A DNA stretch of 64,000 nt, from NCBI GenBank assembly GCA_913775265.1, contig CAJYJH010000021.1, positions 62,001 through 126,000 of the forward strand. The letters are read 5' to 3'. Shown in pieces: positions 7,164 through 10,885 of the stretch; the stretch's first letter is position 1; each line of letters opens with the position of its first letter. Both the position numbers and the translations under genes were made by a program. The notes below the pieces were generated by a model. It was not told the origin of the DNA and did no database searches. It saw only the letters and a list, made by a program, of their open reading frames with translations. This DNA is from an uncultured Mucilaginibacter sp. Its GTDB lineage: Bacteria > Bacteroidota > Bacteroidia > Sphingobacteriales > Sphingobacteriaceae.

Positions 7164-8051
7164 CTATTCATCCAAAAGGAGGGCGTTAGGCAGAATATTG
7201 TCGAGCCCCCACCTTTCTTCAATGCCTAAACCAAACAGGGCAAAGTCGTACTTCACCGGATCGAGCGGGTCGAAATGGCGCAAGTGTTCGGTTAGTTCAA
7301 TAGCCGTTTGCCAATCGGTTTGTTTGCGGGTTATCAGTTTAAGCTTACGGGCAATACGGTCTACATGTAAATCGCATGGGCAAATCAACTGGGCCGGACT
7401 GATACGCTTCCAAATCCCAAAATCTACTCCCGCCTCATCCTGACGTACCATCCACCGCAAAAACATATTTAACCGCTTACAAGTAGACTTTTGCGACGGC
7501 GACGACACATGCTTTTTAGTACGATGCGGATAATCGGGTAAGGAAAAAAAGTAAGAACGAAAGTAATTGAGCGACGACTCCGCCCCAGCTACAGCCCCCC
7601 AGCCCCCTACAGGGGGAGCAAGAAGATCAGACGGATAATCTTGTTGCCAATCAAACTTCTGCTCCCCCTTTAGGGGGCTGGGGGGCATAAATGCATCCTC
7701 CAAACTCTCGTATTTTTCATAATGATGCCTGAAGAACGCGATAAAATATAGCGTATCAATATCGTTGAAAGTACGATGCTTAAACGTAAGCAGCTTTTTG
7801 AGATCAGGTTCCTGGTGATTGATAATAAAATCGTAAGGGGCACCATCCATCAGGGCAATCAGTTCGCGACACTTTTTGATGATAGTTACGCGCTGCCCCC
7901 AGGCTAAGGTTGCAGCCCAAAAGCCCATGATTTCGATATCCTGCTGCTTGCTAAACTGGTGCGGTATTACAATCGGGTCGTTCTCAATGAACTCCAGCCG
8001 GTTGTATTGCGCTACTTTAGCATCCAGAAAAGCTTTGATATCGGTTACCAT
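7164..8051 (-). CDS. TIGR02757 / DUF2400 family protein carrying a translated repeat insertion
   Basis: 295 residues. Family hallmarks are ATLAWGQR near the N-terminus, the STCKRLNMFLRWMVR block (189-203), QLICPCDLHVDRIARKL (221-237) and DPVKYDFALFGLGI (264-277). The fold is thought to be related to helix-hairpin-helix DNA glycosylases, but function is unproven. Residues about 122-153 (starting MPPSPLKGE, ending VGGWGA) are encoded by a 93-base inverted-repeat element (7594-7686). It is exactly 31 codons, so the frame is kept, and it sits in a loop between SLEDAF and AESSLNYFRSYFF. Without it the protein would be about 264 residues, close to my recollection of the family's usual length. The insertion may or may not affect activity. 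Confidence 0.9.
   Translation of the reverse strand: MVTDIKAFLDAKVAQYNRLEFIENDPIVIPHQFSKQQDIEIMGFWAATLAWGQRVTIIKKCRELIALMDGAPYDFIINHQEPDLKKLLTFKHRTFNDIDTLYFIAFFRHHYEKYESLEDAFMPPSPLKGEQKFDWQQDYPSDLLAPPVGGWGAVAGAESSLNYFRSYFFSLPDYPHRTKKHVSSPSQKSTCKRLNMFLRWMVRQDEAGVDFGIWKRISPAQLICPCDLHVDRIARKLKLITRKQTDWQTAIELTEHLRHFDPLDPVKYDFALFGLGIEERWGLDNILPNALLLDE
7594..7686. repeat. Inverted-repeat element, copy A, inside a coding sequence
   Basis: Two 27-base arms (7594-7620 and 7660-7686) are inverted copies matching at 26 of 27 positions, around a 39-base spacer. Each arm is itself a small hairpin (CCCCCT facing AGGGGG) and is far more GC-rich than its surroundings. Total length is 93 bases, divisible by three, with no stop in the host frame. 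Copy B at 9309-9413 shares the arm sequence and the adjoining interior stretch (ATCAAACTnCTGCTCCCCC). It looks like a non-autonomous, REP-like mobile repeat. No transposase is nearby. Confidence 0.85.
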
Positions 8052-8065
8052 TGTTTAAAAAAGTT

Positions 8066-8158
8066 AGAGCCAAGAACCAAGAGCCAGGAACTAAGACAGT
8101 ACACTCGACTATACTTAATTCAAAACCCTTGGTTCTTGGCTCTTGTGTCTTGGTTCTT
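8066..8158. repeat. Intergenic inverted repeat of AAGAACCAAGAGCC type
   Basis: A perfect 16-bp inverted repeat (8066-8081 with 8128-8143) is flanked on each side by a degenerate second copy of the same unit (8082-8097 and 8145-8158). Each arm is therefore a tandem pair. It nearly fills the gap between the PLP enzyme and TIGR02757 genes. It is unrelated in sequence to the C/G-rich elements at 7594 and 9309. It could fold in the transcript and act as an attenuator or processing site, which is inference. Confidence 0.75.
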
Positions 8159-8161
8159 TCT

Positions 8162-9301
8162 TTACGCCAAGGCGTTCTTCAAATCTTCCAGCAAATCGTC
8201 AATATCCTCTACCCCAACGCTGATGCGTAGCAGGTTGTCTACCACACCGGCAGCTTCGCGAGTTTCGCGAGGGATGGACGCGTGGGTCATGGTGGCCGGG
8301 TGATTTATTAAAGATTCAACGCCACCTAACGATTCAGCTAAAGTAAACACCTTTAAATTTGACGCGATGCGGAACGTTTCCTTTAAATCGGCACCTTTCA
8401 ACACGATGGAAATCATACCGCCAAAATCACGCATCTGTTTAGCTGCTATATGATGGTTAGGATGATCGGTGAAACCTGGCCAGTAAATGCGTTCTACTTT
8501 AGGATGATCTTTTAAAAACTCAGCGATAGCACGGCCGTTTTCGCAATGGGCTTTCATGCGCAGGTGCAGGGTTTTGATGCCGCGCAACGCTAAAAAGCTA
8601 TCCATTGGTCCGGGCGTAGCGCCGCATGAGTTATAGATAAACCATAAGCGTTTATACAAATCCTCATCGTTCATCATCAAGGCGCCCATCACCAAATCGG
8701 AGTGACCACCAATGTATTTAGTCACGGAATGCATCACCAGGTCAGCACCCAAGTCCATAGGATTTTGCAGGTATGGCGAGGCAAAGGTATTATCTACCAC
8801 CAGCGTTAGGTTTTTGTCTTTCGTGATAGCAGCCACTGCCTGAATATCTACTACCTGCATGGTAGGATTGGTAGGTGTTTCTATCCAAACCAGCTTGGTT
8901 TTATCGTTCACATACTCATGTATGATGTCGGGCTGATGCAGATTGATGAAGTGAAACTTAATACCGTAGTTAGCAAATATCTTAGTAAAGATACGGTACG
9001 AGCCACCGTACAAATCATTGTTAGTAATTACTTCGTCGCCGGGCTGCAGTAATTTCATTACGGCATCTGTAGCTCCCATTCCGCTCGAAAAAGCCAGACC
9101 AAATTTTGCATTTTCCAGTGCGGCTAAACAGTCTTCCAGTGCTTTACGGGTAGGATTAGTTCCGCGAGAGTACTCGTACCCCTGATGATCGCCTGGTGCC
9201 CGCTGAGCATAAGTAGATGTTTGATATATCGGCGTCATCACTGCTCCGGTACTCGGATCAGGGTGTTGCCCTGCATGTATTGCTTTAGTTGCGAATTTCA
9301 T
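8162..9301 (-). CDS. Trans-sulfuration PLP enzyme (cystathionine gamma-synthase/lyase family)
   Basis: 379 residues, full length for the Cys/Met metabolism PLP enzymes. Visible motifs are the phosphate-binding YSRGTNPT (44-51), SSGMGA (72-77), DNTFASPY with Asp170, and the Schiff-base Lys195 in [12 protein letters not shown]. The family covers cystathionine gamma-synthase (metB), cystathionine lyases (metC) and methionine gamma-lyase; sequence alone does not separate them here, though the N-terminus resembles the gamma-synthase/lyase group. It acts in the cytoplasm in methionine/cysteine interconversion. It lies downstream of proS, with a repeat element filling the gap. Confidence 0.88.
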
Positions 9302-9308
9302 AATTACA

Positions 9309-9413
9309 GCCCCCCCCCCCTAAGGGGGGAGCATTTAAACGTTTATCCTTTTAGGGAAGGACGATTTATATATTGCATATCAAACTCCTGCTCCCCCTCA
9401 GGGGGTTGGGGGC
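9309..9413. repeat. Inverted-repeat element, copy B, filling the proS 3' gap
   Basis: Arms of 25 bases (9309-9333 and 9389-9413) are imperfect inverted copies, mostly C/G runs, around a 55-base AT-rich spacer. The right arm and its inner flank closely match copy A (7594-7686). The element occupies almost the whole 111-base gap between proS and the PLP gene and touches the proS stop codon at base 9413. It includes an 11-base C run (9310-9320), a likely site of length variation. TAAT flanks both ends, which may be a chance match or a target duplication. Confidence 0.8.
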
Positions 9414-10885
9414 TAATAAGCTCTTGCAAACAACACCCTTTGTGTGGATGGGTTGCCGGTCAGAATACACTTGCCTTCTTCCTGTATGTTATCTAAAGGT
9501 ATACAACGAATAGTTGCTTTGGTTTCTTCTTTAATACGCTGCTCGGTTTCTGATGTACCGTCCCAATGGGCTGATATAAAGCCTGGCTTCTCGTCAAGCA
9601 TGCGTTTAAACTCATCGTAGTCGTTTACCTCAACGGTATTTTCCGCACGGAAGTTTAAGGCTTTCTGATAGATGTTCTCCTGAATTTCTTCTAACAATTT
9701 TTCAATATGTTCAGCTAATCCGTCTTGTGCTACCGTCTCTTTAGTTTTGGTATCACGACGGGCCAGCTCTACCGTACCGTTTTGCATGTCGCGGCTACCA
9801 ATGGCAATACGTAAAGGCACACCTTTTAACTCATACTCGGCAAATTTAAAGCCCGGGCGCTGAGTATCACGATCGTCAAACTTAATCGATATGCCTTTAG
9901 CTCTCAGCTCAGTGCTCAAACTTTTGATGTAAGAACGAATGTTTTCCAGTTCCTCATCGTGCTTGTAAATAGGCACGGCTACCACCTGTATTGGGGCAAG
10001 TTTTGGAGGCAACACTAAACCGGCATCATCAGAATGTGTCATAATCAATGCCCCCATTAAGCGGGTAGATACTCCCCATGAAGTTGCCCAAACATAATCC
10101 AGTTTACCTTCTTTGCTGGTAAACTTCACGTCAAATGCTTTAGCAAAGTTCTGACCTAAAAAGTGTGAGGTGCCTGCTTGCAATGCTTTTCCATCCTGCA
10201 TCAGTGCTTCAATACAATAAGTATCCAAGGCCCCGGCAAAACGCTCGTTGGCAGTTTTACGGCCTTTTACCACTGGTACTCCCATCCAGTTTTCTACAAA
10301 ATCAGCATAAACGTCCAGCATTTGCTCCGTTTCAGCTATCGCTTCTTCGGCAGTGGCGTGAGCCGTGTGGCCTTCCTGCCATAAAAATTCGCTGGTACGT
10401 AAAAATAAACGGGTACGCATTTCCCAACGTACTACGTTAGCCCACTGGTTTACCAGGATAGGTAAATCACGGTAAGATTGTATCCAGCCGCGGTAGGTGT
10501 TCCAAATAATGGTTTCCGACGTTGGGCGCACTACTAATTCTTCCTCCAATTTCGCATCTTCGTCAACAATAATGTTGCCTTCGCCATCGTTCTTTAATCT
10601 ATAGTGTGTAACTACGGCGCATTCTTTAGCAAAGCCTTCCACATGGCTGGCCTCTTTTGAGAAGAAAGATTTAGGTATAAACAGCGGAAAATACGCATTG
10701 CTGTGACCGGTATCTTTAAACATCTTATCAAGCGCAGCCTGCATTTTTTCCCAGATGGAGTAGCCGTAAGGCTTAATGATCATGCAGCCTCTTACCGGCG
10801 AATATTCGGCAAGATCAGCTTTTATTACAAGGTCATTAAACCATTGCGAGTAATCTTCGTCTTTACTTATTATACCCTTGCTCAT
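9413..10885 (-). CDS. proS: Prolyl-tRNA synthetase, short archaeal/eukaryotic type
   Basis: 490 residues. Class II synthetase motifs are clear: VVRPTSE (118-124), motif 2 with [20 protein letters not shown] (157-176), and an anticodon-binding domain from about residue 300 ([19 protein letters not shown]). It lacks the large INS editing insertion of the bacterial long form and ends in the conserved short C-terminal RAY, so it is the ProS type 3 common in Bacteroidetes. It charges tRNA-Pro in the cytoplasm. Its stop codon abuts repeat copy B. Divergently transcribed from the lipoprotein gene at 10990. Confidence 0.96.

Follow-up and report, generated by a model that had tools for sequence, protein, structure and literature searches.

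In Mucilaginibacter, a genus of soil bacteria, one loop of a DUF2400/TIGR02757-family protein is a recurrent landing site for palindromic DNA, and related species may hold different palindromes at the same spot. In the window, by which we mean the whole 64,000-nucleotide stretch analysed (C21:62001-126000 of our own genome, G000, from an uncultured Mucilaginibacter sp.), this loop is encoded by a 93-bp inverted repeat, the spacer of which is inverted relative to that of the nearest sampled relative while the reading frame is open either way. The repeat is very probably a non-autonomous bipartite palindromic element, composed of two inverted hairpin arms and a directional spacer, which is tolerated in places where a disordered loop can accommodate it. 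Most earlier accounts of in-frame palindromic inserts deal with single genomes, so that it has been hard to tell accident from a steady supply of protein sequence. In the present case a single conserved gene is followed through 93 species in which the insert is present, halved, in another frame, of another family or flipped, and such a genus-wide series makes the rate, the tolerance and possible targeting directly measurable; it also implies that 'species-specific' linkers in the Mucilaginibacter group may be mobile DNA. The features concerned are as follows.

7164..8051, minus strand: host gene of the DUF2400/TIGR02757 family, 295 aa, with a predicted endonuclease III-like (HhH-GPD) fold
7594..7686, no strand assigned: palindromic element, 93 bp, reading PPSPLKGEQKFDWQQDYPSDLLAPPVGGWG in the frame of the DUF2400 gene (residues about 122-153)
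7594..7620, no strand assigned: arm 1, 27 nt, forming an imperfect hairpin of its own, CCCCCTnnAGGGGG, and bearing a C-rich tail
7621..7659, no strand assigned: spacer, 39 nt, inverted relative to the orthologous spacer of genome G048
7650..7655, plus strand: ATCAAA motif, which adjoins arm 2 and confers direction on the element
7660..7686, no strand assigned: arm 2, 27 nt
9308..9414, no strand assigned: second, diverged copy of the element, in the same orientation in G048

The two arms match at 26 of 27 positions (96% complementary, with 39 nt between them), the CCCCCTnnAGGGGG hairpin is present in each, and the RNA folding energy of the element is -68.3 kcal/mol (z -8.9 against 200 shuffles). 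The 295-aa ORF encloses the whole element and scores 197.7 bits against TIGR02757 (cut-off 139.2) and 285.1 bits against DUF2400, also above the cut-off; the arm match and these profile scores confirm the 93-base repeat, with its 39-base spacer, that the first-pass annotation had placed inside a TIGR02757 gene. Its description as exactly 31 codons is right as to length and wrong as to register, since by arithmetic the element begins with the third base of codon 122 and ends with the second base of codon 153, adding about 31 residues to the host protein (PPSPLKGEQKFDWQQDYPSDLLAPPVGGWG plus the shared end codons). At up to three mismatches, no further place in the 64-kb window matches the arm beyond these two (mean of 0.00 in 100 shuffled controls). 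The more diverged copy at 9308-9414, which had been said to share arm and inner sequence from within a non-coding gap, indeed does so (74% over 47 nt and 83% over 24 nt); it fills the gap between ORF 8162-9301(-) and ORF 9413-10885(-), and its final two bases overlap the stop codon of the latter. A different inverted repeat, AGAGCCAAGAACCAAGAGCC..., with 36-nt arms that are 81% complementary and 32 nt apart, is found at 8060-8163, where it takes up most of the space that separates the DUF2400 gene from its upstream neighbour.

The insert falls between two helices of a conserved fold, in a loop for which disorder is predicted. In an AlphaFold model built from 49 sequences (mean pLDDT 87.6, pTM 0.86), residues 122-152 lie between helices 117-121 and 153-168, in agreement with the earlier assignment of residues about 122-153 to a loop between conserved blocks, and the internal segments with pLDDT below 50 are 130-136 and 147-151. 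The evidence that the modelled protein has an endonuclease III-like (HhH-GPD) fold is good but not conclusive, and we give it moderate weight: VIA-align superimposes the model on endonuclease III (1orn_A) with a Z of 12.8 over 197 residues (rmsd 4.4), a value that helical models can reach, and DNA glycosylases form the top 22 of 50 VIA-align rows, while the best E from Foldseek alone is 0.09. A PDB sequence search with DUF2400 gave a single match (E 0.11), which was regarded as chance.

The element is dispersed and multi-copy. At up to two mismatches the arm has 28 matches at 20 places in our own genome (one in the control), not every place having both arms. Only two of the 20 places lie within a recognised gene and have 60 or more residues both before and after them, namely those in DUF2400 and in the tRNA pseudouridine synthase TruA (TIGR00071). 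The earlier proposal that the element can sit in genes therefore holds for these two, but the other 18 places are between genes or at gene ends, where the element forms the C-terminal tails of an RsmF-like protein, HisIE, a flippase-like protein and one unnamed ORF, as well as the N-termini of MurD and of a YtnP-like protein. Across the genus, the strict arm is present in 86 of 100 genomes (our own included; no match in the reversed-pattern control), and in an order-wide sample it was found, by our own count, in 50 of 60 same-genus rows versus 23 of 190 others. It is missing from the DUF2400 genes sampled in other genera, none of the 65 reaching an arm score of at least 13 versus seven of 15 Mucilaginibacter-like records; these residues are thus not ordinary conserved sequence shared with unrelated genera. 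When the first-listed near-consensus arm of each of 30 genomes was inspected, one was gene-internal, again in DUF2400, and two occupied the N-terminal end of a MurD-like gene, the position also taken in our own genome; the genes preceded by arms at their start also include what we take to be one MurG-like and two TrpG-like genes. The MurD N-terminus, which the element builds in our own and two other genomes (L018 1551-2936, L147 1441-2853 and L164 1390-2847, identified by family search for L018 and by near-identical core sequence for L147 and L164), is a third recurrent site.

To follow the DUF2400 site, 93 loops were read between the conserved SLExAF and FRxYF motifs in the 95 of 100 genus genomes that match the gene; L204, one of 94 loci, was left out as its anchors failed, and G069 as only a fragment. 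Loops were classed by DNA similarity with cut-offs that we set, seven loops and the nine of the Gx class being assigned by eye. The element or an arm was recognised in 53, sequence like other repeat families in 22 (one doubtful) and nothing recognisable in 18, distributed as follows.

Both arms: 18 of 93 loops
Left arm: 22 of 93 loops
Right arm: 3 of 93 loops
Right arm in another frame, DGNYSPFRGLGG (Gx class): 9 of 93 loops
Both arms with a nested second repeat: 1 of 93 loops
GTCATnCTGAG repeat, GTCATnCTGAGCG..CGAAGnATCT, peptide VILSDSEGS: 16 of 93 loops
Other repeats: 6 of 93 loops, one doubtful
None recognised: 18 of 93 loops

Less confidence attaches to right-arm calls with scores of 13-16, since the control scores reached 16 at the 99th percentile and 22.5 at most; we read the high control scores as probably due to windows running past the gene end into real elements. 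The other repeats are likewise dispersed: three patterns, the last of them that of the GTCATTGCGAGG repeat, match 71, 83 and 96 of 100 genomes (reversed-pattern controls 0), counts that may include loop copies, the patterns having been designed from the loops with the help of known Bacteroidetes repeats, and that do not cover the C-type repeat of L033. Fifteen of the 16 genomes with a GTCATnCTGAG loop have at least one strict match of its pattern. Two loops are compound: at L199 (the DUF2400 gene of G058) another repeat, with the peptide HVEPVETLTASLSLRQAQTD, is nested between two G-rich arms with the frame kept, and at L030 (that of G048) an extra truncated arm-like copy (SPSLGWG) accompanies the full element, also in frame.

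The first-pass annotation had proposed to see whether close relatives lack the insert. Its interpretation was right in kind and too small in scope, the insert being no isolated case: many genus loops hold the element, its remnants or other repeats and only the 18 noted above hold nothing recognisable. An assembly or annotation artefact is unlikely for the insert itself, because dozens of other genomes have this site filled as well. Palindromy above z 3 was detected in 20 of 66 loops of at least 60 nt, versus three of 132 coding control windows and one of 22 loops of that length among the 37 that could be cut out from the 65 other-genera genes. These proportions, together with the many matches to dispersed repeats, led us to reject an ordinary variable loop as the explanation. 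On the opposite side, 46 of the 66 loops are not clearly palindromic at present. A tree of this one gene from which the loop was excluded (690 nt, with 40 of 90 inner branches starred) requires 44 changes for the twelve loop classes and 36 for five lumped classes, compared with a mean of 44.8 (minimum 39 of 300) for shuffled labels, which indicates some inheritance, part of the pattern being descent, together with much turnover. Family by family, the changes are near those of shuffled labels (G 24 versus 31.2, V 13 versus 15.0, Gx 6 versus 8.8, none 15 versus 16.8). Supported sister genes can differ in family, as in L039 (the Mucilaginibacter element) and L049 (the VILS repeat), and likewise in the pairs L037/L047 and L057/L196.

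The Gx loops, in which the right arm is read in another frame as DGNYSPFRGLGGFR (L205, L208, L220, L222, L227, L229, L230, L233 and L234), occupy six separate places in the tree and differ from one another mostly synonymously. They are no longer than many element-free loops, the arm replacing the loop instead of lengthening it, and plain decay does not explain this combination. They look like an old arm that is now held at the protein level, and that has perhaps been exchanged between species.

The loop of TruA repeats the pattern of DUF2400, with different repeat families at one site. Loops were obtained at all but five of 94 loci (from 94 of 100 genomes), and cut-offs were set at the highest score among 400 control windows (8.5 for the Mucilaginibacter element family). 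Of the resulting 89 loops, 24 belong to this family, 33 carry a different repeat with a 7-base period (the CCATAGTCCATTGACCATAGAC type) and 32 carry neither. The CCATAGTCCATTGACCATAGAC-type repeat is itself dispersed, being found in 65 of 100 genomes with loop copies included (one control match).

The codon choice of the right arms is in line with translation. In the frame in which TTT would give a TAG stop, the right arm has TTC in 13 of 13 cases, as translation would demand, versus 15 of 34 elsewhere (p 0.0005, the rows being related and not independent); this count left out 13 DUF2400 and five TruA 'A' rows in which the right-arm pattern had picked up left arms.

The orientation of the spacer adds a second layer of change at the same site. 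Compared with G048, the best-matching genome for the DUF2400 gene and the nearest sampled relative, the window spacer is identical at 30 of 39 positions when inverted and at 12 of 39 when read directly, none of 2000 shuffles being as good. The gene flanks are in normal orientation with respect to G048, and the copy at 9308-9414 is unflipped. The ATCAAA motif that gives the element its direction precedes 11 of 54 sampled arms at a distance of at most 18 nt, against a background of 197 of 19190 18-nt windows (1.0%). By eye, an ATCAAA-like motif stands beside the right arm in 14 DUF2400 loops and beside the left arm in two, those of the window and L043, so the window probably carries the derived orientation. 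Frame 1 of the 93-mer is stop-free on both strands, so that the flip leaves the protein open, and the peptides at its start and end are the same or nearly the same either way.

Taken as a bipartite palindromic element, the repeat would be inserted or copied at many genome places by some enzyme, and most insertions in coding sequence would be purged. Flexible loops such as those of DUF2400 and TruA, and gene ends, would tolerate it provided that its length and phase keep the gene open. Once translated, the DNA would serve as a dispensable Pro/Gly-rich linker that may decay, lose an arm or be replaced by the next palindrome, and the flip would most simply originate from recombination between the two inverted arms or from resolution of their hairpin. 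The earlier statement that the sequence had moved or been copied stands as to its multiple copies; since the loci compared showed neither a target-site duplication nor an empty site within a species, movement itself is what the distribution suggests. A bolder reading, which we regard as rather unlikely, would see permanent docking sites in the loops of DUF2400 and TruA; there, unrelated palindromes would swap and flip in place and so rewrite, again and again, the linker of a conserved enzyme, with the element acting as an invertible peptide cassette.

Elements of this kind have precedents, and in-frame insertions of REP sequences and Rickettsia palindromic elements (RPEs) are already known; the turnover at one site and the flip are the new parts. 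The accessible text of PMC10969869 records in-frame palindromic elements in Rickettsia, and RPEs, as described in the parts available of PMC10969869 and PMC3733652, are likewise short, dispersed, palindromic and in frame in unrelated genes. The Mucilaginibacter element shares with them the dispersed palindrome (93 bp at 20 places; about 100-150 bp for RPEs) and the in-frame insertion in unrelated genes (internal in DUF2400 and TruA, N-terminal in MurD), and both kinds of element have a tRNA pseudouridine synthase among their hosts, that of the B subunit gene in R. conorii (PMC3733652, in the part available) and TruA here. It differs in phylum, in that one orthologous site holds different repeat families across the genus, and in that one copy is flipped. 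As the host is not Rickettsia, the comparison made in the first-pass annotation is apt in the sense that the element works like an RPE, and does not imply membership of that group. In the REP/BIME/REPIN group the likeness extends to paired inverted imperfect hairpins around a spacer, to many copies and to positions that touch stop codons or are gene-internal. The portion of PMC3733652 at hand places REPs inside genes, often those for DNA repair or tRNA pseudouridine synthases, categories that the endonuclease III-like protein and TruA resemble; it also describes different REPs at about the same site in recB of X. campestris and X. oryzae, and CGTC-tagged REPs in Bacteroidetes and Rickettsia. 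The view that such elements had not been described for this group was hence only partly right, CGTC-tagged REPs in Bacteroidetes and gene-internal REPs in other phyla being in print. Judging from their GTC start, the GTCATTGCGAGG and GTCATnCTGAG repeats may, in our reading, belong to the CGTC-tagged REPs, which the G-rich arm of the Mucilaginibacter element does not resemble. The prokaryotic MITEs ERIC, QMITE1 and BOX are, according to the available parts of PMC10969869, non-autonomous inverted-repeat elements that can fuse with ORFs (PMC2759123 and PMC5896051 are listed on the subject too); the Mucilaginibacter element has inverted repeats as well, but no target-site duplication was read and a search limited to PF01797 found no parent insertion sequence. 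Among the literature matches listed, which cover few subscription papers and make absence weak evidence, there was no paper on protein-inserted palindromes in Mucilaginibacter or in the DUF2400 loop (one unrelated DUF2400 paper was matched), nor any that reports unrelated repeats replacing one another at a single coding site across a genus, or a flip in place.

Among the other explanations, a single insertion in the genus ancestor, followed by vertical descent and later loss of arms, with other repeats added to an already disposable linker, is plausible but falls short of an even chance. It would account for the occurrence of the two-arm form in every major clade, where the left arm follows closely on a shared upstream motif, for the single frame shared by all 39 left arms caught (seven further matches look like right arms) and for the homology of the window and G048 spacers. 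Against it, the supported sister genes L039 and L049 hold different families, right arms at the DUF2400 site are in three reading frames (8, 14 and 8 loops), and proline codons of the arms are CCC in 94 of 111 cases versus 315 of 1079 in the flanks (rows not independent), a bias that could hardly survive the divergence of a whole genus unless other copies renewed it. It is somewhat doubtful that the loop is instead a true target, to which elements are directed and in which they are not merely tolerated, because the moving machinery recognises some local sequence or structure, perhaps that of the palindrome already present. The occurrence of several families at a single site, in DUF2400 and again in TruA, would fit, as would the nested case L199 and the GTCATTGCGAGG repeat, which is far commoner (96 of 100 genomes, up to 378 matches in one) yet present in one of 93 DUF2400 loops, so that occupancy is not set by abundance. 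Tolerance by a disordered loop predicts recurrence too, however, many other places are occupied by elements, and in a comparison that was not a systematic search no target motif common to the DUF2400 and TruA loops was noticed. That the palindrome is kept for a useful peptide or mRNA hairpin in DUF2400 appears quite improbable: the RNA hairpin is strong and the Gx arm peptide varies mainly by synonymous substitutions, but the loops with no recognisable element include some of 12-16 residues between the anchors, different families supply unrelated peptides at the same place, and the model has low confidence in the loop, as is usual for disordered segments.

It is also unlikely that the repeat is an ordinary REP/REPIN mobilised by a RAYT (Y1 transposase). 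Its two short hairpin arms, inverted with respect to each other and separated by a spacer, match the REP-doublet layout given in the available part of PMC6006769, and PF01797 is matched in 91 of 100 genomes. The element nevertheless lacks the consistent GTAG or CGTC tetranucleotide at the arm end, GTAG being near seven and CGTC near one of 54 sampled arms on either strand and at either end; CTAC stands just outside arm 1 in the window, which follows no family rule. Moreover, arms occur in six of the nine PF01797-free genomes (G023 6, G032 6, G036 2, G060 16, G070 15 and G084 15), and neither PF01797 locus of our own genome, L139 or L140, has an arm within about 1.5 kb. A RAYT was set aside as the mobiliser after the PF01797 search of our own genome and of the 100 genomes, and the inspection of our own flanks, gave no link. 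Of these two Y1 transposase genes, one lies between genes that we take to be metF-like and metH-like, and the other, L140, has an unrelated palindrome, GACTTGTGCTTTG..CAAGTC, nearby.
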